From positions 247,413,827 to 247,477,826 of the forward strand of contig CP136064.1 in NCBI GenBank assembly GCA_032622095.1: a stretch of DNA of 64,000 nucleotides, given 5' to 3'. Both the position numbers and the translations under genes were made by a program. This DNA comes from Siphonodentalium dalli (Eukaryota; Mollusca; Scaphopoda; Gadilida; Siphonodentaliidae). Shown here in pieces: positions 16,304 to 63,199 of this stretch (the stretch's first letter is position 1; the number at the start of each line of letters is the position of its first letter). A model generated the notes under the pieces. The model made no database searches, was not told the DNA's origin, and saw nothing but the letters and a program-made list of their open reading frames with translations.

Positions 16304-19300
16304 ATGTTCTCTGACAGTGTCTACGCTACCTGGGACTCCGCCATCCCGTCGATCTTACCTCCACAGACATACCAGCCGCAAGGTTGTCGGTACAAGAAAC
16401 AAGATATTCTACCTCAGGATTCACTTGCGGGAATAGGTAAGATTTCACCTTCTGTGCGTATGTTAGTTCCCCTTTGACCATTAGTTTGGATACCGTGTCT
16501 GCTAAACTTAAATTCGAAAGTTCTACCCAGTCACTTATGTCAGAATTAACCTATCAAAAATAAAGAGTGGCGCTGGAATATTGTTCTAGTTTATTCTATT
16601 AATTCAGACTTCGTCATTCTGACTGTTTAAAACAATACTGAAATAATGTGTGGCCAAATGTTCAAGTCCCACATAACTGAGCTGTTTTTGGCTGATGCTA
16701 ATTGGTTTTCGGATACCTTTTTAATTCATGCATAACGATTGACTAAAATGGAGCATGTGGTTTTGTACACAGTGTTTACCCAGTTAATTTACGCACGTTT
16801 CATGTTTGTTTTGCTTATTTTCAGACTGTCGAGCATCACATGAACGACCCGTTGATGTTAATGCAATCGACAACCACAAGAGGGAAGTAACCGTGTCTCT
16901 ACACAATGCTGGAATGTGGAGAAAGTTTGATCAGATTGGGACGGAAATGATAGTCACCAAAGTTGGAAGGTAATTGTCGATCCTTGCAAAAGCAAGACGG
17001 ATTCAACTTGATTGACCCCGATTCGCTTTATTCAGTGTGTTTAATAATGTCAACTAATTACCGCAGGGAGCAATGTTATGTGATTGTCGTATAATTTCTT
17101 GAATTTTCCAAAGTTTCAAGCACCGGAATAAAGAGTTTTCTTGCGTATTTACTGTATCACATAAACTTACCACATAACGTCATAATAATGATCGAACAAT
17201 ATGTCCATATTTTGGATCCACCAGCATTTTGCCGAAGAGCACATATGATGTTCATAAACAGGGTGAATGCATGTGGCTCAAATCGCGCAGTTCTCTAAAT
17301 CATTGACTTATGCACCACATTTTTATATGACGATTTCTCTTTGCAGACGGATGTTCCCATCACTGTCGTACTCCATTGAGGGACTACACCCCACGAAACA
17401 GTACACCCTCTCCATCGACGTGGTTTCCGTGGACGACTGTCGCTACAAATTCTACGACTCTGAGTGGTTAGCTTCCGGTAACGCCGATAGTCCGGTTCCC
17501 ATGACAACCTATGTACACCCCGATTCTCCGGCACCCGGATCATTCTGGATGCGTAAGCCTGTCATGTTCCACAAACTCAAGCTGACAAATAACAGGAAAT
17601 CGCAACAAGGGAATGTAAGTATCATGTTTTGTTTTTTTTGAAGATCTAACTTCATTGAACTTTAACTCAATTCTCAACATAGTATCATTGGCCTTGGATG
17701 AACATCATATAACATCCTTCACTTTGTATTAGCCCCCACTACACATTCATATCGGTTTTATCTATATTTATTAGCGGTATGGAATGGAAACAAAATAGTG
17801 GCCGTTTCAAGCTAGTTCAAACTTTATAAACGCTAACTCGTTTGGTCAAGTAGAATACAATAAGCCTCTGATGTGTTCGGGTATACTATTTATCCCGCAT
17901 TGATAAATGAGCACTCGCCCATGAATGGCTAGTTATTCCATTCTCACAAATTCGTTTCAAGGAATTTCTGCTAATAAGTAAATCTTGAGTATCCCGACAA
18001 AAGAATTTATTTAAATTTTCAATATGTTTATTCTCATTAAACTGTAAATAACTGTTAACAAAATAGCAGAAAGGGAAGAAATCTGAAGGTGGGTTCAATG
18101 TCTGTCGTTCGCTCATATGATCTGAATGTATTTACAAAACTAATTATGATTTGATCATTCCGTTGCATTCTGCTATAACTCAAAGTGAGAATCCATTCAG
18201 TAAACGAAGGTTTACTTCTGTTACTCATTGAGAAACGGGGTCATGGAATGATATATACCGCTCACAGATAGATTATCTAAAAAATGTAATCAAAATATCA
18301 TTGGCGATGAATACCAATATATTATGGTATATGTCGCGTTGCAGTCTGAACGCCGATAATTAGTTCCCGACTCGATAACCCATGTGATAAATACTTACAA
18401 TTTCATCAAATTAATACACAGTGATGAAATAGTTATGCTCAGGAAACTGAGTCAATTTATACGGAAAATATATATTGGAATTACCGCCAACCGAAGCCAC
18501 AACTATTCCACAATGAGACATTTACACCAATACCACAAATTAATTTGTTATATATATGTAATTTCTTATGTTCCTCGTGTATTGCCTGTGATTTAAACGA
18601 GTGAAATAAACACATTGAAATTGTAAATTGCAGGTCATAGTGAACACGATGCAGAAATACAAACCTCGTCTCCATATAGCCATGACAGACCACCATCCCG
18701 GACAAGCGCTAACAAAGACATTCACCTTTGCTGGGACACCTTTCATTCCTGTCACCGCATACCAGAGTGAAGAGGTACGTATTTAGTAATAAAAATATCA
18801 AACCTTCCAATAACACATGGTTCAATAATTTTTAACAGCTTGAAAAGTGAAGAAGACGTCACATTTTAGCTCTACGTCAGGGAAATTCAAAGAACTGCAC
18901 TCATATAATATTGAAATGGGAATGAATAAATTCCACTTGATGCCTTACTATATAGTATGCCTAATGCCGGAGTACTTCGTTGTTAGTCAACTGAATTCCT
19001 GGTAACACTCACTTTATATTCTGGGATAGTTAAGAGTTAAGAGTCTTCAGGATTTCATTCCTCTCATTCAGCCATTGATCTATTTATTACCCTCTGTGTA
19101 ATTAAATATCGATTCAAGTATATATCAATTTTACACTTCCGTTTTTCTCTTAGGCTCGTAACATACATTCGTTATAACACAGTTGGAATTTCTTCTTTCA
19201 GATCACGAAGCTCAAGATCGACAATAATCCATTCGCAAAAGGCTTCAGAGAGAATAAAGATGAGAGGTGAGTGTTATATGCATTCCATTATGGTATATTT

Positions 19301-20597
19301 CGGCGGCATAAAGTATTATAATAATTATGGTACCCATCTATCATGAAAGTTGATATCAAGTAATCGTTTACTTCTTGTTTCGCTTACATTTTCTTCTACG
19401 TTTATTGTAATCAGATCCAACCGCCGCCAAAAACAAGAGGCAAATAAGATATTTAGATAAGAATGTTAGACCTTCATTGTTGTTTTCTTTCAAATCTGAT
19501 TATTGTATCCTCTTTTTTCCAGTTCCAGAACAATGACAAAGAAGCGACTGAGATCGGAATCTGAAGACACGAGTGGTAAGTATTCATATACCTGTGAGAT
19601 CAAAACGCTTAGTTATATCTTCTCTTTACTCTAAACAGAAAGAAACACATCCTCTTTTATGAGGTAAGAATTTGAGCTTACAAGACGAAAATTCAAATCT
19701 TTATTCACGATGAACGAACTTGAAAAAGATTAATCCTGGAATCCACTTCAAATACAAGCGAACCATCGGTTGTATTTCCCGAGGTACGTGTTTAAAATAC
19801 AAGAAGATATCAACATCCGGAAATCTATCCAAATGCAATTCAAACAATTATTGGCTGCACTTGTCGTCTCGACAGGCTCTCTCGTATCATTTACATTGGA
19901 TAATATTTCTAGATATTTTCAAATGTCAATTCGTATGTTTTATTTTGCAGATTTTCAACCAGAAAGCAAAAGAAGGCAAGTGAATGCTACCCACACCCAA
20001 ACTCCACACAAAGACTGTTCTCCACAGAGCTACCCACCCACTTCGGTTTTGGATTCGCCGATACCGCCCTGGGATAGCCGAATACTTCCAGCCTTCACCT
20101 CATCATCACCCGTCTTATCGGTATCATACGACGAACTCAGTTATGATAACAGGAATTTCAACAGTTGTCGCCAATTCAATCACCAAGCAGTATGTTCCTC
20201 TGTTCTCCCACATTCCAACGACCTTTTTGCACTAGCAGCGTTGTGTGAACCATCGTCACGATTGACACCAGACTTTGAACAACTTAAAGCAGACATCTTC
20301 GATATATCAAAGAATAAGGACGACATAAGCCTTCCAGCCACTGATGACGAAGATTCACATATCTCACCCGATAGCCTGATACCTTCCCTCATAATCTACG
20401 AATCCTCACCAGATGGCGAGGTTCAGTCAGATTGTTCCAACAGTAGTATCGGAAGCGGTGGTTACTGCGACGATACAAATGAACTAGTGAACTCATTTGT
20501 TCCTGAGGAGTTACACGCGACTTCGGAGAATTGTAACCACGATATTCTGAGAGAAGCCATGTCCATGACCTTCACCCCGAGTGACTTGTCCTTCTAA
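16304..20597 (+). CDS. T-box transcription factor, array gene 1
   Basis: Predicted 483-aa DNA-binding regulator acting in the nucleus. Coding exons: 16304-16436, 16825-16969, 17347-17614, 18634-18774, 19202-19266, 19523-19575, 19951-20597; all introns are GT-AG and phases join cleanly. A cag acceptor just before the ATG (16291-16293) implies an untranslated exon upstream. The T-box spans about residues 66-250: WRKFDQIGTEMIVTK (76-90), DDCRYKF (122-128), HPDSPAPGSFWM (150-161), KLKLTNN (169-175) and the DNA-contact helix DNNPFAKGFRE (236-246). TKKRLR in exon 6 may be a nuclear signal. The C-terminal 215 residues are Ser/Pro-rich with an acidic block (DDEDS), a likely activation region. Exon 4 reads FAGTPFIPVTAYQ, whereas genes 3-5 keep the family-like ETTF. 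The T-box subfamily is unclear; HPDSPAPGS-WM recalls Tbx6/16/VegT and DDCRYKF recalls Tbx2/3. It may be a lineage-specific group. Confidence 0.93.
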
Positions 20598-20741
20598 ACT
20601 CACATAATTAATATACGTCAACGTGTTGCTGGATTATTGCGTTCGTTTGTTTTATGAATATTCATGTGAATATTGTTATTTATTATTATTTATATGCATA
20701 TTTACCGTTACTATATTTGTTATCGTATCGTGAAAATGTTA

Positions 20742-20747
20742 AATAAA
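20742..20747 (+). terminator. Polyadenylation signal, gene 1
   Basis: AATAAA lies 145 bp after the stop codon, in a 3' UTR conserved across all five genes. Confidence 0.7.
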
Positions 20748-21149
20748 ATTATGAGAATTTGATAGCTGCATCTCTTTATCCTAGCATAACCCTTTATTTA
20801 ATAATCACTCATAGACGAGTAGTTCCATTAGGGAATGTTCAGCTAATAAGTTCAACATATGGTCGTATGTTGGTTTAAACATAGTTATTCGCCATATATG
20901 CATATATTCTCTCCTCCTTTGAACTTATACAGTGAACATTTGCCCACCAATGAATAGGAATCCTTCTGCACTTGTATCAGTTTTCGTCTACTTATATTTT
21001 CTTAACATTCCTCCAGGTTAATAATAGACCATTCCAATGTATACCTTCTAACAGAATGGGAGAGTCCATTTAGTAAAGAAAGGGTTATTTACGGACTAAC
21101 TGTATCGTCGGTTACAGTCCGAGTGACGTTTATCGTATCTTACTATTTC

Positions 21150-21560
21150 AAAGGTCACGTGGTCATTGCGACTACACGTGCACGGTATTTCTGCACATAT
21201 ATTTTTTGACGAAACATGCATCAAAGAGGAATAATCCAACAATAACTAAAACCAGAAAATCAATAGCCACACTTTTTGCATTTTGTGCAAGACTAATGGC
21301 GTGTTCTATGATCTGATCGACTTCTAATATTATATGACCATGACCTGGTAATTCTCAGCATCTGAACTTAATACCATTATTTTATGTCCGATTTCTTCGG
21401 AAACTTTCCGAGTAATGTGACTCATGTCGCGTGACTATATATAAAGCGCAGTGTTTCCGTTTTAATATAAATAGTTTATATGATGTAATTTGTTTCTCTA
21501 ATGGCAACAGGCACGTTCCTGTTTTTTTTTCACTCCCATTGAAGATTGATTGCAATAAAT
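21150..21560. promoter_or_regulatory. Promoter-like conserved block downstream of gene 1
   Basis: It contains two CACGTG E-boxes (21156-21161 and 21175-21180), an AP-1-type TGACTCAT (21418-21425) and a TATA-type TATATATAAAG (21436-21446) in a row, all kept in unit 2 and mostly in units 3-5. This arrangement resembles a core promoter with upstream sites, but no gene is seen directly after it. It may serve a distant 5' exon of the next T-box gene or a non-coding transcript. Inference only. Confidence 0.35.
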
Positions 21561-21972
21561 AAATAAACGTACAGTGTCAAATAACAACCATACGGGTGGA
21601 AATTTAATCAGGAATCAGGAAATTAACAAGCCTACCCGGTACATACACGTATGTATCAATATATCTGTAGATATTTCAGTGCAAGTGTCGATGCTGGCCT
21701 GTGGCCATATGCGCACTGGGATCGAGAAGATCCACCACCCAATTTGTCCAGGTTTGTTTTGCCGAAACCATATTAGTAGGGTATATAGGGATCTTTAACA
21801 TGCATACATTGTTGCAGACGGGACAGCCATTCAGTGTCGGTTCCCGATCCGGCGGTGTGCCCAACCTAATGTCATCCCTGGTAATGACATTACAAGAGGA
21901 GCAGCGTTACGCAATTCGCCCAGAATGTGTTTTTCAAATTTTGTCTGAGATTCTGTTGCTTCTGGAATCGTT

Positions 21973-22403
21973 AATAATAATAATGTATAGCATTTGTAAA
22001 GCGCCTTTCCCATGAGGCCCAAAGCGCTCAAAGTTTTACAATTATTACCCCGATGAGCCTGAACATTCAGTAACCATCTACTGCTCCCCGGGGACAGGGG
22101 GAGGTACAGCCGGGAGTATGCGAGGATACCATATGGCTAGCATACTGACAAGATCTTTCACTGCTCATTATCAGGTACCCTTGTAATGCATGGGTGGTGC
22201 AAAGCAGACACAGTACGAGCGACCTTGCTCAAGGGTCACAACTTGGCGCGAGATTCAAACAGTGTACAATCCAACAATTGCACATCGCTCAAGTCGGCCA
22301 AGCCACTGCTGTGTGGAAACTCATAACAGACCACCAGCCAGCCGCGAACTCGCCTCGCTGTGTTGACAACGAAGACAAGTCCAACGCGCTAACCACTGGA
22401 CCA
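21973..22403 (-). mobile_element. tRNA-derived SINE, unit 1
   Basis: On the minus strand the head reads gtggtccagtggttagcgcg (A-box type), followed about 50 bp later by gagttcgcggc (B-box type, near 22341-22353). The far end has an (ATT)n tail at 21973-21984. The tail-side body carries 'aaagcgcctttcccatgagg', a motif common near the 3' end of many SINEs. It is flanked by a 4-bp cgtt duplication. The site is empty in units 3 and 4, so it arrived in the unit 1/2 ancestor. Confidence 0.8.
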
Positions 22404-22608
22404 CGTTCTCAGAACACTGATTGTGGCATCGATGGTTGATTCGTGATGCCCATGATGTCGACACAAAGTCCAAACGATACTATATCGGATTCGGTCGTGT
22501 CGAAGGTGTAACTCAAAGGTGGGCCCATAAACCGACTGATCTATTCGCTCCTCGCTGTATAAATTATAATAATTAATGTATGCTTCATATTTGGCACTTG
22601 TGAGTACT

Positions 22609-22664
22609 TCTGCGAAAGCGGTCATGCCTCATTTATTTTAGGTTAACATGACCGCTTTCGCAGA
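22609..22664. repeat. Perfect 18-bp stem hairpin, unit 1
   Basis: Arms tctgcgaaagcggtcatg (22609-22626) and its exact reverse complement (22647-22664) are separated by a 20-base loop. A third copy of the right arm, with one change, lies at about 22931-22948. The hairpin is kept in units 2 and 3 and collapsed in unit 4. It could be an RNA stem or a foldback relic. Confidence 0.7.
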
Positions 22665-23446
22665 TTAAATGTACTCAGTAAGTTCATTGTGAGCGGTTCA
22701 TGACTTACCTAGTTATTCAGACAACTGAATCTTAGCGCAACTTCAAGAGAAAATAAATGACAAAATTATAAATATCGACACACAGGCACGGTCACAGCTT
22801 CAACTTTAAGCCTTAATTTTGGGCCACACTGGTCAAAACATAAATACAGATTACAACTTACCACTCTAAGTCTGTTTATAGACGCGGTTGCAGTATATTC
22901 CTATCATTATCTTCCATATCTTCTGTCAACATGACCGCTTTCCCAGATTGCTGCTTCCAGAGGTCAAGTCGCTCTGTATATATTTACTGGGTGTTTGCGA
23001 TTGGGGACATACAAAATAGTTTCTCAACTTTAATAAGTGAATAACATTGTAAACAAGAGTATTCATCACAGTTAATGATAACTTGTACACATTAGTTCAT
23101 TATATTAAAAATTTTCTAATCGAAGCAAGATAATCAACGACGACCACCATGTTAGTAATGTGCAATTTTCTCTGATAGGAACCGGAAACGGAACGAAAGG
23201 TTGAACTCAATCTAGACGGTGACATTTTGTGCTCACTATCCCCAAATATATGTTGCTTTTATATTGTAAGCTCAATTTTCTGAAGAGAAATAATTTATTT
23301 TGTCCTTAAATTTTGTGTGAGAATCGATTAAAAGACCAGATTTACGGAATAATTCGTTCCGGAATTTAATGATTCCCCCATTTGATATTATCATCAATAA
23401 TATTTATTGCATGCGAACACTGTACAATTTAATAATTTACAATTAC
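22665..23446. other. Unit 1 3' flank, no gene
   Basis: Conserved non-coding DNA, nearly identical to 33766-34547. At about 23443 the unit sequence stops and joins the minus-strand T-box relic B; this is the tandem duplication junction. Confidence 0.6.
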
Positions 23447-23450
23447 TTAC

Positions 23451-24073
23451 CTTTCAACTTTGGCGACTAACATCTCTGTCCCAATCTGAACAAACTTTCT
23501 CCACAGTCCAGCATTATGCACAGACACAGTTACTTCAGTCGGGGGCTGCGATCGGAAACAGCATTGACGGATCGTTGATGTGTCGTTCAGCAATCTTAAG
23601 ATGTACGTAGTATAATACAGTTGACATGTGCGTAATACATATAAAAGAGTGGTGGGGTGTATATATATCGACAGTAATTTCTTGTCGGAAGTATAGTTTA
23701 TATATGCATACCAATGTTATTGAATGCAAATGACTGCTGACGATATTGATTCGTATTAAGTGACAATACATGGTGTTTCAAACGTCGTGTGTATAGATGT
23801 TGAGAAACTTTTTATTAGTGTAGTCTTTGCGCATATATTATACTAAAACTGCATTATAACCTTAATTGAGTTTGATCTCTTGTAATAGGGAATTCCGTTT
23901 CCGAAACTCAAGGTCCAACACGGCCATTATGCAAGAAAGGTGAAGATCTTACATATTCCCGCAGCTGAACCCCGAGGCAGAACCTCTTGTTTCTTGTATT
24001 GACAACCCTGTGGCAGATATTGCGGTACAATAGACAGAATTGCGAGTCCCAGGTAAACACTGTCAGAGAACAT
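23451..24073 (-). pseudogene. T-box gene exons 1 and 2, minus-strand relic B
   Basis: It is an almost exact copy of relic A (10245-10867) at a constant offset of 13,206 bp: exon 1 at 24073-23953 and exon 2 at 23594-23451. It has the same lesions: exon 1 frame disruption, aag acceptor and an in-frame stop early in exon 2. It was therefore already broken when the segment was duplicated. Here it directly adjoins the unit 1 3' flank, with no LINE 2. Confidence 0.9.
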
Positions 24074-25905
24074 GGCTGGATAGCGGATACCTGTAGAGAA
24101 ATAGTACAAATTAATTTAGAGCACATTTATCATAATTAATAAAGGTTGAGCTACCAATGTATCGTCTTATGACGCGTATGTATCGCATGATATGCAATTC
24201 TAATTTCTAGCACCGTTGTTGTACCAAATAAACAAAATAAAAAAGAGATGAGTTTATGTCCTGACCTTAACAAGACTCTAATGAGTGTGGGATATAAAAT
24301 AAATAAGCTTTTGTGTTTTTCTTTCGGCTATTGGGTCCAAATAACTGAATTGTTTTGTGCTTAATGGGTGTTCAAGGGAATCCGTTGAGCGCGTTCGTCG
24401 TGACGTTATTTTTTTAGTCGATAAAATATGGCGGCTGTATGTGAAGGAAATTCGACTTGTATTTATGTCAATAAAGCGCCGCTATATGGCTTTATTTAAA
24501 CATTGGTTTTTATTAAACGAAAAATGATTTCTTCGAGCATCATTGAGTCAAACTTTAATATCAGAAAAATAATCGGAAATTTCTAAGTCGAATCACTTGA
24601 TATTTTTAAGTATAAAAAGGACGATAGCTGCGACAAAAATCATCGGACGGCTACCATATTCAAATGTGACCTAAATAATGTGATGGGTGTTCCCCATATA
24701 AGTTTCGTTCGGATCAGTTGATATTAACTGGAGTTGTCATCCGGCAAGAAGAACAATGGCAACTTCTAAATCAAAGGATCATAACTTTTGAGAAAACTCA
24801 TAGCTAAGTGTAGGAATGCATATCGCTTTCTCAATTTGTTGGAAAAGGAAACACTATTCATCCTTCCGCCCGAATTAACCTATTTCCAATAATATATTCT
24901 CTTGTAAGCACAAATCATAGAAGAGAAGAGTGTTATTTTACGTAATATAAAGTTATTATACAATGTTGTGTACAGTGTGTGTTTATATACATATATAGGG
25001 ATACTCATTGTCAGTTCTCGATTCCACTGGTATTAGTTTTACGAATAATCTCGAACAGTTTTCGGAGTTGTTTTCATAAGCACGATAGTTTGCTTTGTTA
25101 CGAAAACATCACGGTTGATTCCTATGAAAACTTGCTCATTCAATTTATTGTTTTTGCAGTGCAGCTCCTGACAGTGTTGGTAATAATTACTGCCCCATTG
25201 CCCAGTTGTGGTATTAAACCACTATTTTACACTTTTTGACCTATATAATATACACACATGATACAACGATAGTTGGTAATAAAGTGGCTTCAAGTACGAC
25301 GATAAGCGGGTAAAAATAACATTTTAAGTCCACGTTGGTCAATGACACTGAAAGTTAGCTCTATATTACATGGGACTGCGGGTGTTTACGATGACAGAGA
25401 TAAATGCACTAAATATTGCACAATTCAATTTGAATTCATAATTATTAAAACGACATGGCTCATTCGAGCTTCCAAACTGTTGTCTACGTAATTTGGAAGG
25501 AGGCATAAGATAGGTTGAAAAATACTTCCTATCGTGACAGCCATTTTCCAGCTGTTTTAATTTTTTTTTACAGAAGTGAAATAAACGCTCTTTATTTATA
25601 CCATATCAGGAATGGACTAATACGAAACGCTCTTTTCTGTTCAATCCCATGCACATGGCTGTTGTTTGTTTGGGAACAAGCATCGCGTTAAAAAAAAGAA
25701 ATTATGACTTCAATGTATCTTTCTGTGACATATAATGCCCGTCGTAAAGTAGTTCAGGTATTTATCGACCTATTTCAATACCGGGTTTTGTGTGTATTTT
25801 TTAGAGAAAAGAGCCATGTGGCTTTTAGAACAACATCGTGACAGAAGTTTTTCAAACATGACAATTTAAATTATTCTGATGTAGAACAGCTCCAGTAAAC
25901 TTATG
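24074..25905. other. Divergent spacer between relic B and gene 2 unit
   Basis: Near-identical to 10868-12502 plus 14203-14480, but without the hAT-like insertion and the LINE fragment. No gene is seen. Confidence 0.6.
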
Positions 25906-26740: not shown

Positions 26741-27405
26741 CATAACCAGTTCATCTCTTGATATCACAACGACTCAGCTACAGTTAAATTGTGAGTATAG
26801 CATGTAGTACCTTTTTTATTAATATTTTCATACTTGGTTCCCAGCTTGTTATGGTAGTGTTGTGTTCAGTTAATATATTATTGGAAACGTATGGTTTCGT
26901 GTTGATTTAAACAATATTTATGTTTGCCCCAATTAATATTACATTTATGATGAACAACATTTTGATGATGGAAACATGAGTAGAATAGAAAAGGGGAAGA
27001 GGGTCTAGCAGCAAGCAGATATCTGCTTTTGTTGAGCTATCTTCTTCATGTTCTAAGATAAGAAACAGGATTCTTTGCAATCCTTGTCTAAAACGTCTCA
27101 ATATATTCTTTAAGTTCAATGATCAACATATGTGCCAACGAGAAACATATTGTTCTGAGGTTGCACTAAATTTCGGAGTGAATGGCGGTTCATGTTAGTT
27201 TGGCACCAGTCGCTCTTGGTGAATTTATTTTATTTTAAGATTCCACAACTAGCACCCCATGGATAGGCGGCTAGAATTGCGCACGATTTGAAACATTTTC
27301 GAACGTTCGTGTTTACAACTTCTTGTTCACTCAATCATGATTTATATAATCGTGATAATTCACTCGTTGATTTAGTTCCTTTTTTTTCATTACAGGAATT
27401 GAACC

Positions 27406-30400
27406 ATGTTCTCTGACAGTGTCTACGCTACCTGGGACTCCGCTATCCCGTCTATCTTACCTCCACAGACATACCAGCCGCAATGTTGTTGGTACAAGAA
27501 ACAAGAGATTCTACCACAGGATTCACCTGCGGGAATAGGTAAGATTTCACCTTCTGTGTTAGTTCCCCTTTGACCATTAGTTTGGATACCGTGTCTGCTA
27601 AACAACTTAAATTCGTAAGTTCTACCCAGTCTCTTCTATCAGAATTAATCTATCAAAAATAAAGAGTGGCGCTGGATTATTGTTCTAGTTTATTCTATTA
27701 ATTCAGACTTCGTCATTCTGACTGTTTAAAACAATACTGAAATAATGTGTGGCCAAATGTTCAAATCCCACATAACTGAGCTGTTTTTGGTTTATGCTAA
27801 TCGGTTTTCGGATACCTTTTTAATTCATTCATAACGATTGACTAAAATGGAGCATGTGGTTTTGTACACAGTGTTTACCCAGTTAATTTACACACGTTTC
27901 ATGTTTGTTTTGCTTATTTTCAGACTGTCGAGCATCACATGAACGACCCGTTGATGTTAATGCAATCTACAACCACAAGGGGGAAGTAACCGTGTCTCTA
28001 CACAATGCTGGAATGTGGAGAAAGTTTGATCAGATTGGGACGGAAATGATAGTCACCAAAGTTGGAAGGTAATTGTCGATCCTTGCAAAAGCAAGACGGA
28101 TTCAACTTGATTGACCCCGATTCGCTTTATTCAGTGTGTTTAATAATGTCAACTAATTACCGCAGGGAGCAATGTTATGTGATTGTCGTATAATTTCTTG
28201 AATTTTCCAAAGTTTCAAGCACCGGAATAAAGAGTTTTCTTGCGTATTTACTGTATCACATAAACTTACCACATAACGTCATAATAATGATCGAACAATA
28301 TGTCCATATTTTGGATCCACCAGCATTTTGCCGAAGAGCACATATGATGTTCATAAACAGGGTGAATGCATGTGGCTCAAATCGCGCAGTTCACTAAATC
28401 ATTGACTTATGCACCACATTTTTATATGACGATTTCTCTTTGCAGACGGATGTTCCCATCACTGTCGTACTCCATTGAGGGACTACACCCCACGAAACAG
28501 TACACCCTCTCCATCGACGTGGTTTCCGTGGACGACTGTCGCTACAAATTCTACGACTCTGAGTGGTTAGCTTCCGGTAACGCCGATAGTCCGGTTCCCA
28601 TGACAACCTATGTACACCCCGATTCTCCGGCACCCGGATCATTCTGGATGCGTAAGCCTGTCATGTTCCACAAACTCAAGCTGACAAATAACAGGAAATC
28701 GCAACAAGGGAATGTAAGTATCATGTTTTGTTTTTTTTGAAGATCTAACTTCATTGAACTTTAACTCAATTCTCAACATAGTATCATTGGCCTTGGATGA
28801 ACATCATATAACATCCTTCACTTTGTATTAGCCCCCACTACACATTCATATCGGTTTTATCTATATTTATTAGCGGTATGGAATGGAAACAAAATAGTGG
28901 CCGTTTCAAGCTAGTTCAAACTTTATAAACGCTAACTCGTTTGGTCAAGTAGAATACAATAAGCCTCTGATGTGTTCGGGTATACTATTTATCCCGCATT
29001 GATAAATGAGCACTCGCCCATGAATGGCTAGTTATTCCATTCTCACAAATTCGTTTCAAGGAATTTCTGCTAATAAGTAAATCTTGAGTATCCCGACAAA
29101 AGAATTTATTTAAATTTTCAATATGTTTATTCTCATTAAACTGTAAATAACTGTTAACAAAATAGCAGAAAGGGAAGAAATCTGAAGGTGGGTTCAATGT
29201 CTGTCGTTCGCTCATATGATCTGAATGTATTTACAAAACTAATTATGATTTGATCATTCCGTTGCATTCTGCTATAACTCAAAGTGAGAATCCATTCAGT
29301 AAACGAAGGTTTACTTCTGTTACTCATTGAGAAACGGGGTCATGGAATGATATATACCGCTCACAGATAGATTATCTAAAAAATGTAATCAAAATATCAT
29401 TGGCGATGAATACCAATATATTATGGTATATGTCGCGTTGCAGTCTGAACGCCGATAATTAGTTCCCGACTCGATAACCCATGTGATAAATACTTACAAT
29501 TTCATCAAATTAATACACAGTGATGAAATAGTTATGCTCAGGAAACTGAGTCAATTTATACGGAAAATATATATTGGAATTACCGCCAACCGAAGCCACA
29601 ACTATTCCACAATGAGACATTTACACCAATACCACAAATTAATTTGTTATATATATGTAATTTCTTATGTTCCTCGTGTATTGCCTGTGATTTAAACGAG
29701 TGAAATAAACACATTGAAATTGTAAATTGCAGGTCATAGTGAACACGATGCAGAAATACAAACCTCGTCTCCATATAGCCATGACAGACCACCATCCCGG
29801 ACAAGCGCTAACAAAGACATTCACCTTTGCTGGGACACCTTTCATTCCTGTCACCGCATACCAGAGTGAAGAGGTACGTATTTAGTAATAAAAATATCAA
29901 ACCTTCCAATAACACATGGTTCAATAATTTTTAACAGCTTGAAAAGTGAAGAAGACGTCACATTTTAGCTCTACGTCAGGGAAATTCAAAGAACTGCACT
30001 CATATAATATTGAAATGGGAATGAATAAATTCCACTTGATGCCTTACTATATAGTATGCCTAATGCCGGAGTACTTCGTTGTTAGTCAACTGAATTCCTG
30101 GTAACACTCACTTTATATTCTGGGATAGTTAAGAGTTAAGAGTCTTCAGGATTTCATTCCTCTCATTCAGCCATTGATCTATTTATTACCCTCTGTGTAA
30201 TTAAATATCGATTCAAGTATATATCAATTTTACACTTCCGTTTTTCTCTTAGGCTCGTAACATACATTCGTTATAACACAGTTGGAATTTCTTCTTTCAG
30301 ATCACGAAGCTCAAGATCGACAATAATCCATTCGCAAAAGGCTTCAGAGAGAATAAAGATGAGAGGTGAGTGTTATATGCATTCCATTATGGTATATTTC

Positions 30401-31698
30401 GGCGGCATAAAGTATTATAATAATTATGGTACCCATCTATCATGAAAGTTGATATCAAGTAATCGTTTACTTCTTGTTTCGCTTACATTTTCTTCTACGT
30501 TTATTGTAATCAGATCCAACCGCCGCCAAAAACAAGAGGCAAATAAGATATTTAGATAAGAATGTTAGACCTTCATTGTTGTTTTCTTTCAAATCTGATT
30601 ATTGTATCCTCTTTTTTCCAGTTCCAGAACAATGACAAAGAAGCGACTGAGATCGGAATCTGAAGACACGAGTGGTAAGTATATTCATATACCTGTGAGA
30701 TCAAAACGCTTAGTTATATCTTCTCTTTACTCTAAACAGAAAGAAACACATCCTCTTTTATGAGGTAAGAATTTGAGCTTACAAGACGAAAATTCAAATC
30801 TTTATTCACGATGAACGAACTTGAAAAAGATTAATCCTGGAATCCACTTCAAATACAAGCGAACCATCGGTTGTATTTCCCGAGGTACGTGTTTAAAATA
30901 CAAGAAGATATCAACATCCGGAAATCTATCCAAATGCAATTCAAACAATTATTGGCTGCACTTGTCGTCTCGACAGGCTCTCTCGTATCATTTACATTGG
31001 ATAATATTTCTAGATATTTTCAAATGTCAATTCGTATGTTTTATTTTGCAGATTTTCAACCAGAAAGCAAAAGAAGGCAAGTGAATGCTACCCACACCCA
31101 AACTCCACACAAAGACTGTTCTCCACAGAGCTACCCACCCACTTCGGTTTTGGATTCGCCGATACCGCCCTGGGATAGCCGAATACTTCCAGCCTTCACC
31201 TCATCATCACCCGTCTTATCGGTATCATACGACGAACTCAGTTATGATAACAGGAATTTCAACAGTTGTCGCCAATTCAATCACCAAGCAGTATGTTCCT
31301 CTGTTCTCCCACATTCCAACGACCTTTTTGCACTAGCAGCGTTGTGTGAACCATCGTCACGATTGACACCAGACTTTGAACAACTTAAAGCAGACATCTT
31401 CGATATATCAAAGAATAAGGACGACATAAGCCTTCCAGCCACTGATGACGAAGATTCACATATCTCACCCGATAGCCTGATACCTTCCCTCATAATCTAC
31501 GAATCCTCACCAGATGGCGAGGTTCAGTCAGATTGTTCCAACAGTAGTATCGGAAGCGGTGGTTACTGCGACGATACAAATGAACTAGTGAACTCATTTG
31601 TTCCTGAGGAGTTACACGCGACTTCGGAGAATTGTAACCACGATATTCTGAGAGAAGCCATGTCCATGACCTTCACCCCGAGTGACTTGTCCTTCTAA
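27406..31698 (+). CDS. T-box transcription factor, array gene 2
   Basis: Predicted 483 aa. Coding exons: 27406-27538, 27924-28068, 28446-28713, 29733-29873, 30301-30365, 30622-30674, 31052-31698. The protein from exon 3 to the stop is identical to gene 1, and introns 2-6 are nearly identical too, which indicates very recent duplication or conversion. Exons 1-2 differ: QPQCCWYKKQEILPQDSPAGI at the end of exon 1, and IYNHKGEV before the T-box against IDNHKREV in gene 1. Intron 1 and the upstream DNA are of the gene 3 type (for example 'ctaaacaact' and a 100-bp block at about 26905-27060), and the promoter MITE of genes 1 and 4 is missing. It shares the derived FAGTPF in exon 4 with gene 1. T-box landmarks and likely role are as for gene 1. 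All frames are intact. Confidence 0.92.
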
Positions 31699-31842
31699 AC
31701 TCACATAATTAATATACGTCAACGTGTTGCTGGATTATTGCGTTCGTTTGTTTTATGAATATTCATGTGAATATTGTTATTTATTATTATTTATATGCAT
31801 ATTTACCGTTACTATATTTGTTATCGTATCGTGAAAATGTTA

Positions 31843-48628: not shown

Positions 48629-51600
48629 ATGTTCTCTGACAGTGTCTACGCTACCTGGGACTCCGCCATCCCGTCGATCTTACCTCCACAGACATACCAG
48701 CGGCAAGGTTGTCGGTACAAGAAACAAGATATTCTACCTCAGGATTCACTTGCGGGAATAGGTAAGATTTCACCTTCTGTGCGTATGTTAGTTCCCCTTT
48801 GACCATTAGTTTGGATACCGTGTCTGCTAAACTTAAATTCGAAAGTTCTACCCAGTCACTTATGTCAGAATTAACCTATCAAAAATAAAGAGTGGCGCTG
48901 AAATATTGTTCTAGTTTATTCTATTAATTCAGACTTCGTCATTCTGACTGTTTAAAACAATACTGAAATAATGTGTGGCCAAATGTTCAAGTCCCACATA
49001 ACTGAGCTGTTTTTGGCTGATGCTAATCGGTTTTCGGATACCTTTTTAATTCATGCATAACGATTGACTAAAATGGAGCATGTGGTTTTGTACACAGTGT
49101 TTACCCAGTTAATTTACACACGTTTCATGTTTGTTTTGCTTATTTTCAGACTGCCGAGCATCACATGAACGACCCGTTGATGTTAATGCAATCCACAACC
49201 ACAAGAGCGAAGTAACCGTGTCTCTACACAATGCTGGAATGTGGAGAAAGTTTGATCAGATCGGGACGGAAATGATAGTCACCAAAGTTGGAAGGTAAGC
49301 GTGGGTCTTGGAGAAGCAAGTCACATTCAATTCTCACCGATTCGTTTTATTCAGATTGTTAAAAAAACTGTCTATTTATTACCGCAAATCGGGTCATGGA
49401 ATATTGCTACGTGGTTGTCATATAATTTCTTGAATTTTCAGAAGTTTCAGGCACATAAATAAAAAGTGTTTTTTTGCGTATTTACTGTATCACATAACTT
49501 TACATCATAATAATTATCGACCAATATGTTCGTATTTCATTCGCCAGCAGTTTGCCGAAGAACAAATATGTTAATAAACAGTGTGATCGCATGTGGCTCA
49601 ATTCGCGGTTCTCTAAATCTTTGTAGTATGCGCACTCACCACATTTTTATATGACAATTTCTCTTCGCAGACGGATGTTCCCATCACTGTCGTACTCCAT
49701 TGAGGGACTACACCCCTCGACGCAGTACACCCTCTCAATCGACGTGGTTTCCGTGGACGACTGTCGGTACAAGTTCTACGACTCTGAGTGGTTAGCTTCC
49801 GGTAACGCCGATAGTCCGGTTCCCATGACAACCTATGTACATCCCGATTCGCCGGCACCCGGATCATTCTGGATGCGCAAGCCTGTCATGTTCCACAAAC
49901 TCAAGCTGACAAATAACAGGAAATCGCAACAAGGGAATGTAAGTATGGTGGGTTTTTTTTTATATTTTTGAATAACTAACTTCATAAAATTTTAACTCAA
50001 TTCTCAACATTATCAACAGAGTGTTATTGGCATTGAATGAACATAACACAAAACTGTTCACTTTGTATTACCTCATACTACACATCATACCGGTGTTATC
50101 TGTATATTTATTTGTGTCATGGAATGGAAACAAAATAGTGGTCGTTTCAAACTAGTTCAAACTTTACAATCATTACATTGTTTGGTCAAAAGGAATTCAA
50201 TAAACTTCTCTGATGTGTTCGCGTACTATTTGTCCCACATTCATAAATGAATACTCGCCCATGGCTAGTTATTTTATTCTCACTGATTCGTTAAATCTGT
50301 ATAAAAGAATCTAATTAAATGTCCAATATGTTTATTCTCACTGGACTGTAAATACATGCAGTATTTGAGAGTAATTGTTAACAAAATAGCAGAAGGGCAC
50401 GAACTCTGAATGGGGTTCTATGTCTGCCGTTCGCTGGTATGATCCGAATGTACTTACACAATTAATTATGATTAGACCATTCCGTTGTATTCTGCTATAA
50501 CTCGAATTGAGAATCCATTCAGTGAACGAATGTTTAACCTAACTTCTGTTTGCAGGTCATAGTGAACACGATGCAGAAATACAAGCCTCGTCTTCATATA
50601 TCCATGGCAGACGACCATCCCGGACAAGCGCTAACAAAGACCTTCACCTTTGCTGAGACAACTTTCATTCCTGTCACCGCATACCAGAGTGAAGAGGTAC
50701 GTATCTAGTATTATAAATCTCAAACCTTCCAGTAACATATGATTCAATAATTTTCAACGGCTTGAAAAGTGAAGAAGGAAGACATCACATTTTAGCTCAA
50801 CGTCAGGGAAATTCAATGAACTGCACTCATATAATAGTGAAATGGTAATGAATAAATTCGACTTGATGCATTAATATATGGTATGATTGATGCCGAAGTA
50901 CTTCATTATTTGTCAATTGAATTCCAGGTAACACCCATTTTATATTCTGATATAGTTGCTAAGAGTCTTCAGGGTTGCATTCCGGCCTCATTCAGCCATT
51001 GCTCTACTTATTACCCTCTGTATAACGAAATATCGATTCAACTATATATCAACGTTACACTTCCGTGATTCCTCTTCGATTCGTAACATACATTCGTTAT
51101 GACACAATTGGAATTTCTTCTTTCAGATCACGAAGCTCAAGATCGACAACAATCCATTCGCAAAAGGCTTCAGAGAGAATAAAGATGAGAGGTGAGTGTT
51201 ATATGCATTCTATTGTGGTATATTTCGGCGGCATGACATAACACATGTACACACTGATTAGGATTGTGTCCACCCCACAATCATTTGTCATAATTTGTCT
51301 CCTGGTCAATAATTTATATTATTGTACCCACCTATCACGACCTTGAAAGTTGATATCAATTAATCGTTTACTTCTTGTTTTATTCAAATCTCGCGGTTTC
51401 CCCATCTGTTCCACTTGCCGATAGTTAGATGCGGTTCGGACTATTTCGCCTTACATGTTCTTCCACGGTTATTGTAATCAGACCCAATCGTCGCCAACAA
51501 CAAGGTGCAAATAAGATATTTAGATAAGAATGTTAGACCTTCATTATTTTTTTCTTTCAAATCTGATTATTGCATCCTCTTTTTTCCAGTTCCAGAACAA

Positions 51601-52633
51601 TGACAAAGAAGCGACTGAGATCAGAGTCTGAAGACACGAGTGGTAAGTATCCATATACCTGTGAGATCAAAACGCTTAGTTATTTCTTCTCTTTACTCTA
51701 AACAGAAAGCAACATATCCTCTTTTATGAGGTAAGAATTTGAGCTTACACGACTTGGAAAAGATTATTCCTGGAATCCACTTCAAATACAAGTGAACCAT
51801 CGGTTGTATTTCCCGAGGTACGTGTTTAAAATACAAGAAGATATCAGCATCTGGAAATCTATCCAAACACAATTCAAACAATTATTGGCTGCACTTGCCG
51901 TCTCGACAGGCTCTCGTAATTATTTGCATTGTATACTGTTTCTAGAACAATTAAATTTTTAATTCGTATGTTTTATTTGTTTGCAGAATTTCAACCAGAA
52001 AGCAAAAGAAGGCAAGATAATCCTAGCCATACCCAAACTCAACACAAAGACTATTCTCCACAGAGCTACACACCCACTCCGGTTGTGGATTCACCGATAC
52101 CGGCCTGGGATAGCCGATTACTTCCAGCCTTCACCTCATCATCACCCGTCTTCTCGGGACCGTACGACGAACTCAGTTACGATAGCAGGAATTTCAACAG
52201 TTGTCGCCAATTCAGTCACCAAGCAGTATGTTCCTCTGTGCTCCCACATTCCAACGACCTTTTTGCACTAGCAGCGTTGTGTGAACCATCGTCACGATTG
52301 ACACCAGACTTTGAACAACTTAAAGCAGACATCTTCGATATATCAAAGAATAAGGACGACATAAGCCTTCCAGCCACTGATGACGAAGATTCACATATCT
52401 CACCAGATAGCCTGGTACCTTCCCTCATAATCTACGAATCCTCACCAGATGGCGATGTTCAGTCAGATTGTTCCAACAGTAGTATCGGAAGCGGCGGTTA
52501 CTGCGACGATACAAATGAACTAGTGAACTCATTTGTTCCTGAGGAGTTACACGCGACTTCGGAGAACTGTAACCACGATATTCTGAGAGAAGCCATGTCC
52601 ATGACCTTCACCCCGAGTGACTTGTCCTTCTAA
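48629..52633 (+). CDS. T-box transcription factor, array gene 4
   Basis: Predicted 483 aa. Coding exons: 48629-48761, 49150-49294, 49671-49938, 50556-50696, 51127-51191, 51590-51642, 51987-52633; all frames are intact with GT-AG introns. Exon 1 differs from gene 1 by one residue (QRQGC for QPQGC). The pre-T-box segment reads IHNHKSEV, and exon 3 has LHPSTQYT where genes 1-3 and 5 have LHPTKQYT. Exon 4 reads HISMADDHPGQ and keeps FAETTF. The last exon starts EFQPESKRRQ instead of DFQPES and has HTQTQHKDY. Introns 2-5 are of the gene 3 type, whereas exon 1, intron 1 and the upstream region match gene 1. Landmarks of the T-box and acidic C-terminus are as in gene 1. It probably acts as a sequence-specific transcription factor. 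Confidence 0.93.
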
Positions 52634-57659: not shown

Positions 57660-60600
57660 ATGTTCTCTGACAGTGTCTACGCCACATGGGACTCCGTCAT
57701 CCCGTCAATCTTACCTCCACAAACATACCAGTCGCAAGGATGTCCGTACACGAAACAAGAGATTCTACCCCGGGATTCAGCAGCGGGAATAGGTAAGATT
57801 TTCACCTTCTTTGTGTATGTTGTACCATAAGTTTGCATTCATTGTATGCTAAAATTAAATCCGGAAGTTTTATCCAGTCCCTTCTATCAGAATTAATATA
57901 TACAAAAAACAAAAAGTGCATAACACTGGATTATTTTTCTAGTTTTATTAACTCAGACTTCGTCACACTGTTTTTTTTTTTTAAATATATACAATACTGA
58001 AATAATGTAACTCGGCCGTTTTTGGCTGATGCTAATCGGTTTTCGGATACCTTTTTAATGCATGCATAAAGGTTGACTAAAAAGGAGCATGCGGTTTTGT
58101 ACAAAGTGTTTACCCAGATGATTTACACACGTTTATGTTTGTTTTGCTTATTTCAGACTGCCAACATTATATATATATTATGGCCGTGTCTCTTCATAAT
58201 GCTGGAATGTGGAGAAAGTTTGATAAGATTGGGACGGAAATGATAGTCACCAAAGTTGGAAGGTAAGTCTGGTATACTATGGATCCTTGAGAAGCAGGTC
58301 GGGTTCATTTCACACCCTGGTCATTCGTTTTATTTAGTATGTTCAAAACTGTCAATTAATTAGCACAAATCGGGCCATGGAACAATGTTATGTGATTGTC
58401 ATATAATTTCTTGAATCTTCCAAAGTTTCAAGCACCGAGTGTTATTTATTTTTATTTTTTTTGCGTATTTATTGTATCACATAAACTTTCCTCATATTAA
58501 TGGTCGAACAATATGTTCATATTGCAGCCGCCATAATTATGCCGAAGAAGAAATATGTTGATAAACAAGGTGATCGCATATGACTCAAATCGCGCAGTTC
58601 TCTAAATCGTTGTCTTATGCACATGCACTCACAACATTTTTATATGACCATTTATCTTTGCAGACGGATGTTCCCATCACTTTCGTACTCCATTGAGGGA
58701 CTACACCCCACAAAGCAGTACACCCTCTCCATCGATGTGATTTCCGTGGACGACTGTCGGTACAAGTTCTACGACTCTGAGTGGTTAGCTTCCGGTAAAG
58801 TTGATAGTCCGGTTCCCATGACAACCTATGTACATCCCGATTCCCCGGCACCCGGATCATTCTGGATGCGTAAGCCTGTCATGTTCCACAAACTCAAGCT
58901 GACAAATAACAGGAAATCACAGCAAGGGAATGTAAGTATGGTGGTTTTGGTTTTTAAAGAACTAACTTCATTGAATTTCAACTCAATTCTGAACAATATC
59001 AACATGGTATTTGGTCTTGCATGAACATCATATAAAATCGTTCACTTTGTTTAATTTCACACTGCACATCCATATCAGTTACATCTATATTTATTAGTGT
59101 CATGGAATGAAAACAAAATAGTTGCCGTTCAAAACAAGTTCAAACTTAATTAGCGCTTCCATTGTTTGGTCAAGTAGAATACAACAAGCCTCTGTGATGT
59201 GTTCGGGTACTATTTCTCCCACATTCATAAACAGGAAAACCATAGTCAGAAATGGTAATGCGCTCAAGATCATATATTATATACCCATGATTGTAATTAT
59301 AGAATATAAAATATATTGGTTTCACGAATGATCAACTCATAGAACTACTAGCCTTGCACCTCTTGGCATCCGCGCGAATAACAATTGAAATTGAAATCCC
59401 CAACTACACCTTTTACCGGACTCGGCCTCCGGGTCGCAGTTCGACTTTTAATCCGTCCAAAAATTCCCATTCTGTAAATAAAACCCCCAGCGCCCATAGG
59501 ATACAATAATCTCTACATTAGTTATACACGCTGAGCGCTGAATGAATACTCGCACATGGCTACTTATTATATGCTCACTGATTCGTTTCAAGGGATGTCT
59601 ATTAATAAGTAAAGCTGTGTATCCCCTAGAAACCAATCTATTTGAATTTTCAATATGTTTATTCTCATTAAACTGGAAATGCAGCATTTGAGACTAATTG
59701 TTAACAAAATAGCAGAAGGGGCAACATCTGAATGGCGTTCTATGTCTCGTTCGCTCATGTGATCGGAATGTATTTAAAAAAATAATTATGATTTGACCAT
59801 TCCGTTGTATTCTGCTGAAACTCAAAGTGAGAATCCATTCAGTAAACGAAGGTTTAAATGCCCATTTAATTTTCGGGTCACGATTATTTTTTATAGTGCC
59901 TTGATATACGGTTTTAATAACAATCCATGAAATAGATTAAACTACTACAATTCATCACCATTTGGAACGTCTGTGTGTCTGAATGTGCCCATAGAGTAAT
60001 AGAAAATATCTGAAATCATAGAAACATTTCACCCGTTTCGCTGCCAGAATGCAACATAATTCAAACTAAGAGATAGAGTTATTCCCCTTCCATTGAAAAT
60101 AATAGACTTGGCAGAACAGTCGATATGAAACTTAAGCAGAGAACACACGTCGGTACCTCAACAACACATGTTCACATTATATTACACCGCATAAGTTGAT
60201 AATACAATCTTTTGGAGCTTCCTCTTTCAAATGGTATATAAAGTGGAATTTATTTTTATATCATGTGATCTGGGGTTCGAAAACTAAGTTGGCCTTTAAT
60301 CTAACTTCTGTTACTCATTGCAGGTCATAGTGAACACGATGCAGAAATACAAACCTCGTCTTCATATATCCATGGCAGACGACCGTGCCGAACAAGCGCT
60401 AACAAAGACCTTCACCTTTGCTGAAACAACTTTCATTCCTGTCACCGCATACCAGAGCGAAGAGGTACGTATCTAGTATTAGAGCACAATCCCATTGTTA
60501 CAATCGTTCCCTGATTTTTGGTAAAGATCACCAATTCCCAATGTTGGCGAAGGAATAGTTCAGTGATTATCCATTGTTGGGCACACGCAACTCATAACAG

Positions 60601-63199
60601 ACAAATAGCACGGACGCTTCAAAGTGGGACCAGACCGTGTTGTTTCGGACATATATTCACATTCAACGGCGATCATTTCATGTTAATCACGTTGTTGTGC
60701 GTGGCAAACCGGCTATTGTGTCCAATGGCGGCCAGCGCACGGATTGTGCGTCGTGTTCAAAACACGCTCAACGGCACATTTCCAGTTGATTGCATTATGT
60801 GGGATCAATTGTGCTCTAAGTCGGTCAGAGCAAGCGAATAGTTATTTACCATAATAAATCTCGTCTTCGACTCGATTGATTCTGGTAAAGAACAATTCTT
60901 GTGCTCTAACCCTTACTTATAAATCTCAAACCTTTTTTTTTCAATAATTAAGACACCACCTTTGAGCTATATGTCAGGGGAATTCAATGAACTCTACTCA
61001 TATAACATTCAAATTGAAATGAAAAATTAATTAATTAATTCTACTTGATGCTTTAGATGGAATTCCTAACACCAGAGTACTTCGTAATCAGTCCAATGAG
61101 ATTTTTTTATTCCGAAATATTTTCTAAGAAGAATTAGGACCGAGTCTTCGTGTTATCATTGCGGCCTCATTCAGGCATTGATTTACTCTATATGTGACCC
61201 GCCATATCAAATCCAGTCGTAAGTCGGGATTTGTTTACCCTGTGTTAATGCATTCTCTTATATATGCGAGTCGACCATAGGTCGCCTCGCATATATAAGA
61301 GAATGCATTGGCCTAACAATTTTTTACAATTTTAATAATTTTTTCTTGTATTCTTTAACAATTTTATAATTTCACCCATACAGAGTCCCAGACAAACATG
61401 AGCAGACGACACTCTTCTATATGCTTCTATATATGTCTGGGGCTCCATGCAGGGTATAATGGATGTTTTTTATTTTATGTCCTAAAAATTGTAAGAAACA
61501 TTTATTTAAAAAAAATGATAAAAAATTGTTAGGCCAATGCATTCTCTTATATATGCGAGGCGACCTATGGTCGACTCGCATATATAAGAGAATGCATTGG
61601 CACAGGGTAAAAAAAAATCCCGACTTACGACTGGATTTGATATGGCGGGTCACATATATGGAAATATCGATTCAACTATCAACGTTACTCTTTAGTTTTT
61701 TCCTCTTCGATTCGTAACATACATTCGTCATGACATAATTGGAATTTATTCTTTCAGATCACGAAGCTCAAAATCGACAACAATCCATTCGCAAAAGGCT
61801 TCAGAGAGAATAAAGATGAGAGGTGAGTGTTATGCATTCAGTTATGGAATTTTTCGGCGGCATGACATAACAAATAGGTACTCACGGATTAGTGGTGTGT
61901 CCACCCCAACATTCACTCTAATTACTTCTTGTTTTATTCAATTTCGCGGTTCCCCCATCTGTTCCATTTGCCGTTACATGGATGCAATTCGTGCTGTAGC
62001 GCCTTACATTTTCTTCCACGGCTACTGTAATCAGATCCAACCGTCGGCAAAAACCAAGAGGCAAATAAGATATTTAGATAAGAATGATTGACCCTTTTTT
62101 GTTATCGTTCAAATCTGATTATTGTATCCTCTTTTTTCCAGTTCCAGAACAATGACAAAGAAGCGACTGAGATCAGAGTCTGAAGACACGAGTGGTAAGT
62201 ATTCATATACATATGAAGTCAAAACACTTAATTTTATCTTCTCTTTACTCTAAAACAGAAAAGTAACACAGCTTCTTTTACAAGACGAAACTTCAAATCT
62301 TTATTCACGATGAACGAACTTGAAAAAGATTATCCATGGAATCCACTTCAAACACAAGCGAAGCATCGGTTCTATTTCCTGATGTACGTGCTTAAAATAC
62401 AAAAAGATATCAGCACCTGTAAATCTGTCCAAATACAATTCAAGCAATCATTGGCTGCACCTGCCGTCTCGATAGGCTCTCATAATCATTTACATTGGAT
62501 AATATTTCTAGAAATATTCAATTGTTAATTCGTATGTTTTATCTGTTTGCAGATGTTCAACCAGAGAGCAAAAGAAAGCAAATTGAACCTAACCACACCA
62601 AAGCTCCACTCCAAAACTATTCTCCACAGAGCTACCCACCCACTCCGGTTGTGGATTCGCCTATACCGACCTGGGATAGCCGCATCCTTCCAGCCTTCAC
62701 CTCGTTATCACCCGTCTTCTCAAGATCATACGACGAACTCGGTTACGATAGCAGGAATTTCAACAGTTGTCACCAGTTCAGTCACAAAGCAGCATGTTCA
62801 TCTGTGATACCATATTCCAACGGCCTATTTGCACTAGCAGCGTTGTGTGAACCATCGTCACGATTGACACCAGACTTTGAACAACTTAAAGCAGACATCT
62901 TCGATATATCAAAGAATAAGGACGACATAAGCCTTCCAGCCACTGATGACGAAGATTCACATATCTCACCCGATAGCCTGGTACCATCCCTCATAATCTA
63001 CGAATCCTCACCAGATAGCGATGTTCAGTCAGATTGTTCCAACAGTAGTGTCGGAAGTGGCGGCTACTGCGACGATACAAATGAACTAGTGAACTCATTT
63101 GTTCCTGAGGAGTTACACGCGACTTCGGAGAATTGTAACCACGATATTCTGAGAGAAGCCATGTCCATGACCTTCACCCCGAGTGACTTGTCCTTCTAA
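57660..63199 (+). CDS. T-box transcription factor, array gene 5, shortened before the T-box
   Basis: Predicted 470 aa, the most diverged intact copy. Coding exons: 57660-57792, 58157-58262, 58664-58931, 60324-60464, 61758-61822, 62142-62194, 62553-63199. Exon 2 is 106 bp against 145 bp in the others: 39 bases are lost in frame, and the linker before the T-box becomes DCQHYIYIMAVSLHNAG, with the conserved EVTV start of the domain partly replaced. The core WRKFDKIGTEM follows unchanged. Exon 1 ends QSQGCPYTKQEILPRDSAAGI, exon 3 has DVISVDDC, and exon 4 has MADDRAEQ. The last exon begins DVQPESKRKQ but keeps the acidic block unchanged. Introns 3 and 4 are expanded to about 1.4 and 1.3 kb by three transposon insertions. 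It is a probable DNA-binding regulator; the lost N-terminal strand may alter folding or DNA affinity. Confidence 0.92.
59858..60295. mobile_element. TTAA-site MITE in intron 3 of gene 5
   Basis: It is flanked by TTAA (59854-59857 and 60296-60299); gene 3 shows the empty site 'gtttaacctaacttctg'. The ends are inverted repeats (atgcccatttaattttcgg / reversed aaaactaagttggcct). 438 bp, non-coding, piggyBac-like by its target. Confidence 0.8.
60482..60906. mobile_element. MITE in intron 4 of gene 5 (TA site)
   Basis: Inverted ends gagcacaa / ttgtgctc are flanked by TA on both sides; the matching place in genes 3 and 4 ('ctagtatta') is uninterrupted. 425 bp. It contains a 107-codon open frame (60518-60841) with no recognisable domain. 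The TA target suggests a Tc1/mariner-like origin, which is inferred. Confidence 0.65.
61191..61656. mobile_element. Foldback element with about 120-bp inverted repeats in intron 4 of gene 5
   Basis: The left end (tatgtgacccgccatatcaa, then 'tccagtcgtaagtcgggat') and the right end are near-perfect reverse complements for about 120 bp. Within the arms are two hairpins, 61247-61309 and 61533-61601, almost the same as those in the 4671-5070 element. The centre has an extra about 100-bp piece (about 61375-61470). Non-coding. Confidence 0.85.

Follow-up and report, generated by a model that had tools for sequence, protein, structure and literature searches.

T-box genes and relics in the window

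We analysed a 64,000-nucleotide stretch of the genome of the scaphopod Siphonodentalium dalli (the window; C4:247413827-247477826, C4 being contig CP136064.1 in an assembly of 2.23 Gb and nine contigs), which carries a tandem array of T-box genes. Between window positions 16304 and 63199, five T-box genes follow one another on the plus strand, each with seven coding exons, matching phases and GT-AG introns in our exon models. An earlier note on this DNA had described five complete genes on the same strand; the shared seven-exon structure stands, but only four of the five are intact, gene 3 being frameshifted, and the common orientation holds inside the window, while copies beyond it occupy both strands. 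The three minus-strand gene fragments that the note had listed are real. The features are as follows.

Gene 1: 16304-20597, plus strand, 483 amino acids (aa), frame intact; exons 16304-16436, 16825-16969, 17347-17614, 18634-18774, 19202-19266, 19523-19575, 19951-20597
Gene 2: 27406-31698, plus strand, 483 aa, frame intact; exons 27406-27538, 27924-28068, 28446-28713, 29733-29873, 30301-30365, 30622-30674, 31052-31698
Gene 3: 36735-40880, plus strand, frameshifted, exon 7 being short by one base near 40280 so that the open frame stops after 362 aa; exons 36735-36867, 37259-37403, 37780-38047, 38665-38805, 39236-39300, 39805-39857, 40235-40880
Gene 4: 48629-52633, plus strand, 483 aa, frame intact; exons 48629-48761, 49150-49294, 49671-49938, 50556-50696, 51127-51191, 51590-51642, 51987-52633
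Gene 5: 57660-63199, plus strand, 470 aa, frame intact, with a shorter exon 2 beginning at 58157; exons 57660-57792, 58157-58262, 58664-58931, 60324-60464, 61758-61822, 62142-62194, 62553-63199
16286-16303, plus strand: splice acceptor and 10-base leader preceding the ATG of gene 1 (CATTACAG at gene 1, CATTATAG in one other copy)
5110-5724, minus strand: exon 7 relic of a related gene, 78% identity to gene 1, frame broken
10244-10867, minus strand: relic of exons 1-2, perhaps belonging to the same minus-strand copy as the exon 7 relic
23450-24073, minus strand: second relic of exons 1-2, within a duplicated block

Membership in the T-box family is clear from gene 1, whose exon 3 scores 106.5 bits (E 2e-30) against the Pfam T-box model, above the cut-off of 26 bits, and whose spliced T-domain aligns with a TBX5 chain at 206 bits among solved structures. 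An intron in the 5' untranslated region seems probable, because a splice acceptor and leader precede the ATG. Both exon 1-2 relics lie in a block that self-comparison finds twice (10238-12488 and 23444-25689, 98% identity), and near the first of them tblastn detected no significant counterpart of exons 3-6. Between two of the minus-strand relics, the minus-strand frame 8818-10107 has a weak similarity to reverse transcriptase (24.5 bits, where Pfam requires 29.6).

Genome-wide extent and class of the T-box loci

The window holds about a fifth of its array (five of 23 core-exon loci), and this array is one of two on the same chromosome. By core exon (exon 3), the genome has at least 65 T-box loci, of which 61 lie on C4. 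All such counts are lower bounds, scoring having covered the best 150 of 279 candidates. The same 65 loci, and further relic-like exons in the window's array, came back when the T-domain of gene 1 was the query (best 150 of 292). The loci are distributed as follows.

Array C, the window's array (C4:247.17-247.73 Mb): at least 23 core-exon loci, five of them inside the window
Array A (C4:191.56-192.01 Mb): at least 28 core-exon loci and one place with exon 4 only
222-Mb group (C4:222.24-222.39 Mb): four core-exon loci
Remaining core-exon loci: six elsewhere on C4, two on C1, one on C2 and one on C9

We assign arrays A and C, together with one pair from the 222-Mb group, to one derived clade of at least 53 loci, all on C4; 39 of the 53 were placed by tree and signature, the other members by position and similarity. 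The earlier note had put the family at no fewer than six or seven events, far below this count, whereas its idea of a lineage-specific expansion is supported. Judged by sequence, the expansion is a Tbx6-like, lineage-specific T-box radiation that reaches far beyond the window. We found no T-box expansion of comparable scale in the open-licence literature, which was covered mostly as titles and abstract openings. Five array C copies stand apart from the fully modelled ones, two being incomplete (L021, L022) and three divergent (247.17-247.20 Mb), and stretch L018 holds an extra 3' piece without exon 3. At C4:191861000-191866100 (L070), two apparent array A last exons with frames of 300 and 312 aa lie 2.7 kb apart.

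The note had also proposed a phylogeny with named T-box subfamilies. Our tree comprises 80 T-domains: 20 of the 28 from array A, 17 of the 23 from array C, all four from the 222-Mb group, nine others from this genome, 25 database proteins and five from PDB, the names of several references being our own assignments. The two arrays and the pair at 222.24/222.25 Mb come out as one clade (support 99/95), which is joined by the gene at 222.39 Mb (93/95) amid spiralian Tbx6-type proteins. The gene 5 group (four genes, 99/90) and a set of six minus-strand genes (99/89) form subgroups. The fourth 222-Mb gene, at 222.33 Mb, is of a slowly evolving Tbx6 type and, over 138 columns, shares 89% identity with an Aplysia TBX6L protein. 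The C-termini of mollusc Tbx6-type proteins align with the last exon of this gene (Solemya 67.8, Potamilus 65.9 and Gigantopelta 64.7 bits), and among the 16 matches listed for this exon (best 8 per 300 bases) the 14 named ones are all from molluscs. The clade pair sits 79-93 kb from this gene. Derivation of the radiation from a Tbx6-class gene, whose slow version would remain at C4:222.33 Mb, is the origin best supported by the tree.

Two results count against this placement: approximately unbiased (AU) tests leave a grouping of the arrays with Tbx2/3 (p 0.093) or with Brachyury (p 0.095) unrejected at 0.05, and the branch leading to array C is long (0.96). The Tbx6/doc genes, moreover, often fail to group, and their class is often not monophyletic (PMC10809584). 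The arrays could instead have arisen from Tbx2/3 or another T-box class, their position next to Tbx6 being a long-branch effect. We regard this as distinctly unlikely: although C4 also carries five Tbx2/3-like loci (four by tree, the fifth sharing its exon 3 peptide with one of the four), the free tree does not group the arrays with Tbx2/3 proteins, and both the support values for the Tbx6 placement and the proximity of the clade pair to the slow Tbx6 gene speak for the latter.

A Brachyury identity is not indicated for gene 1, since among solved T-domains the T protein ranks under TBX5, TBX3, TBX21 and TBX1, and the Brachyury genes of this genome are on C1. These two genes lie far apart (59.68 and 247.34 Mb) and both group with Xenopus T (100/99), an identity that solved structures also give for the one at 247.34 Mb. 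Two further genes are a Tbx1-like locus at C4:195.9 Mb and an Eomes/TBX21-like locus on C9. The locus on C2 we take to be Tbx20-like from a motif, the tree having no Tbx20 reference.

Constraint, altered residues and array growth

Full models were built for 18 of the 23 array C loci, and the frame is intact in 14 (four of five in the window, ten of 13 outside; one of the latter, C689, has a different end). Over all 91 pairs of intact genes, the pooled ratio of the proportions of nonsynonymous and synonymous differences (pN/pS) is 0.374, with 0.225 in the T-domain, 0.566 in the N-terminal and 0.415 in the C-terminal part. In array A, exons 3-4 were compared for 20 of the 28 genes; they are free of stops, with a pooled pN/pS of 0.160 over 190 pairs. 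Genes 1 and 4 differ by 35.8 per kb of coding sequence vs 119.4 per kb of intron, and by no indel event in 1452 coding bp vs 29 in 2345 intronic bp. Such values indicate purifying selection on the array copies, strongest in the DNA-binding domain, and the low T-domain ratios together with the few coding indels suggest that the array genes are functional.

The derived clade carries a signature of its own. TAYQS is present in all 39 members examined, whereas TAYQN occurs in all of the best 120 database matches and in 11 other genes of this genome that were examined. In the NSMHKY motif, Q replaces H in 38 of the 39 members by pattern, and by eye in the last one (L059) as well; at this site the best 120 database matches have H in 118 cases and Q in one, with one unmatched. 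The residues before WM are SF in 38 of 39 members by pattern and in the last one (C534) by eye, and none of the 117 database hits matched at that site has F. NSMHKY and TAYQN together, the usual motifs of the Tbx6/16 class (a feature of the T-domains compared here rather than a formal definition), are therefore lacking in the clade.

Brachyury contacts DNA bases through R69, T196, A197, F213 and F217 (PMC11828899). By our own count, the array C consensus keeps the corresponding residues in GRRMFP, VTAYQ and NPFAKGF; array A keeps RMFP and VTAYQ, with NPFAKGF observed there in one gene only (L008). The array proteins would consequently bind the usual T-box element, because the base-contacting residues seen are kept, through a domain in which the neighbouring loop is altered: the change from AYQN to AYQS falls three residues past A197. 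Specificity or partner binding may have been shifted by this and the other changes that preceded amplification, namely NSMHKY to NTMQKY and S-F-W-M in place of x-H/Q-W-M.

The flanks were duplicated along with the genes, as self-comparison confirms for the amplified unit of 9-12 kb that the earlier note had described; start-to-start distances in the window are 9.0-11.9 kb. Two segments bear on the duplication of units and the exchange between them.

16047-23444: amplified unit of gene 1, copied as the gene 2 unit at 27144-34545 with 99.3% identity over 7.4 kb
15306-16950: upstream region, exon 1 and exon 2 of gene 1, matching gene 4 at 97-99%

Past about 16950, gene 1 is 99.7-100% identical to gene 2, and the promoter comparison likewise finds its upstream region to be gene 4-like. 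Over the approximately 220 bp 5' of the ATG, identity to gene 4 ranges from 83 to 99% across the 14 copies compared. Gene 1 is therefore a mosaic of two other copies, with a junction near 16950 produced by recombination or conversion. In the window, units of 9-12 kb were duplicated in tandem, and unequal crossing-over or gene conversion may have driven the growth of the array.

Such tandem turnover and segment exchange, with all clade members on a single chromosome, would also fit sex- or germline-biased regulators or a family driven by genetic conflict rather than genes that pattern the embryo. This alternative appears unlikely to us, and the strong constraint on the DNA-binding domain speaks against it.

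The near-identity of the gene 1 and gene 2 units might still point to a haplotype duplicate, and assembly or haplotype duplication could have inflated the array more widely, some copies being alleles set side by side. Two T-box loci, at 79.62 and at 79.63 Mb, score alike and share the same exon 3 peptide, and L018 contains a run of 100 N. We consider an explanation of this kind very unlikely. Protein identity among the 14 intact copies of array C is only 84-99%, and the promoters differ, which argues against one collapsed locus; copies are also unlike in introns and strand, and the arrays extend over hundreds of kilobases of a chromosome-scale contig.

Some further observations concern repeats and the assembly. 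A palindromic element with arms of 33 bases sits inside an inverted repeat of 80 bases at window positions 4695-4924, and near-identical arms recur at 61533-61601. An element that looks by eye like a long interspersed nuclear element covers L028:5748-9998 and window positions 1-1029, and its end appears to lie at the start of the window; its first frame has 549 aa, and the second, long one resembles a reverse transcriptase, again by eye. Near an N run on C1 (108119000-108130332; L072, L073), a search for COX1 reached a set of open mitochondrial genes: cox1-nad2-nad4-nad1-nad5 follow one another in this order, and the opposite strand carries nad4L, nad6 and cytb, all named from our reading of the frames. 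Either mitochondrial DNA was inserted here recently or the contig is mis-joined. The cox1-nad2 adjacency is shared with the dentaliid scaphopod Pictodentalium vernedei (PMC9859601) and monoplacophorans (PMC5162086), in which the following genes differ; no decisive gene order came from PMC7707011, PMC5856267 or PMC4189740. Taken by itself, the sequence suggests a mollusc, perhaps a scaphopod, and no result favoured a chaetognath or a brachiopod. ARAGORN with the bacterial code, which is uninformative for mitochondrial tRNAs, found no tRNA in L073, and Rfam at gathering scores gave no match in L072, L073 or the window.

Other amplified families and known systems

Forkhead genes served as a control family; all 70 candidates were scored, giving 62 matches. 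Seventeen similarly scoring forkhead loci form an array at C4:194.32-194.69 Mb, starting at a distance of 2.3 Mb from T-box array A, and seven more with one partial copy lie at C5:93.75-93.82 Mb; the one array copy that was read (L074) has a divergent forkhead frame. For Homeobox_KN we obtained at least 60 matches (best 150 of 228 candidates scored), including a TALE-type array of 22 matches in 142 kb (C6:167.238-167.380 Mb), most of them in 275-aa frames. At C9:143.49-143.513 Mb, four frames have two homeodomains apiece. Since these searches also gave arrays, the T-box arrays appear as part of a wider pattern, T-box genes being one among several amplified transcription-factor families in this genome, and this pattern suggests that the arrays have a cause in common, whether functional or mutational.

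The arrays could be genuine and yet owe their existence largely to chromosomes prone to duplication, with a functionless copy number and purifying selection acting on a few expressed members. The arraying of unrelated transcription-factor families would fit this, as would the relics interleaved among the copies of array C, the broken frames, and the six similarly scoring core exons spaced 8.7-9.8 kb apart in array A (C4:191.87-191.91 Mb). The low pooled pN/pS in both arrays argues in the other direction, as does the scarcity of coding indels between genes of the window that differ by 12-25% in their introns, and we think such a by-product possible but doubtful.

We rather hold it probable that the tandem arrays are a lineage-specific radiation of Tbx6-class T-box genes, constrained in sequence and altered near the DNA contacts, which perhaps act as a battery of early-embryo regulators. 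By analogy with the foxQ2 duplicates of other spiralians, such a battery of similar factors might provide a high or staggered dose. Besides the unrejected AU alternatives and the long branch, several results weigh against this interpretation. Four of the 18 modelled array C copies are frameshifted (gene 3 and three outside the window). Genes 3 and 4 differ by 43.4 per kb in coding and 60.4 per kb in intronic sequence, as expected if constraint on gene 3 is relaxed. The exact T-box half-site TCACACCT, taken from PMC6589888, occurs in the window 0 times vs 1.81 expected, and there is therefore no sign of autoregulation. Finally, the forkhead and TALE-type arrays may mean that this genome generally tolerates tandem amplification.

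One could speculate, and we offer this only tentatively, that this mollusc lineage rebuilt part of its early regulatory code as tandem arrays, each with tens of similar genes (Tbx6-derived genes with a changed loop near DNA, divergent forkhead and TALE-type genes; the T-box clade wholly and the forkhead genes mainly on one chromosome), that jointly run a fast, dose-driven cleavage programme. T-box genes are usually present in low copy number and are dose-sensitive. With a clade of more than 50 members under purifying selection, the species would have, to our knowledge, the largest T-box complement known from any animal. If our interpretation is true, the radiation represents a natural experiment, in which a conserved patterning factor was duplicated, altered beside its DNA-contacting loop and then amplified. 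Together, the T-box, forkhead and TALE-type arrays make it testable whether early development in this animal runs on duplicated transcription-factor batteries.

Smaller multiplications of Tbx6-class genes are known from other invertebrates. The earlier note had assumed that invertebrates normally have T-box genes singly or in pairs. For this class the assumption goes too far, given the three Dorsocross genes of Drosophila (PMC9104307) and the two to four Tbx6-r genes of each tunicate sequenced (PMC6589888). Doc1-3 are several Tbx6-class genes, as those of the arrays described here probably are, and their factors are functionally largely redundant (PMC9104307); they number three rather than more than 50, and the D. 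grimshawi protein (named TBX6 in its source, and taken here as Doc type) keeps TAYQN, unlike the TAYQS of the derived clade. The tunicate Tbx6-r genes are likewise lineage-specific duplicates of a Tbx6-related gene, with no one-to-one pairing across species (PMC6589888), but their copy number per species also falls far below the more than 50 found here. In spiralian foxQ2, a developmental transcription-factor class was duplicated in annelids and molluscs, and Owenia has 11 paralogs with staggered activation (PMC9539403). These genes belong to the forkhead family, and their copy numbers are smaller than those of the T-box arrays. The duplicated TALE homeobox (SPILE) genes of spiralians are tied to early embryos; we liken them to the 22-copy Homeobox_KN array by family alone, and they are homeobox, not T-box, genes. 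Lineage-specific transcription-factor arrays are thus a known kind of system, of which the T-box radiation of S. dalli is a variant.

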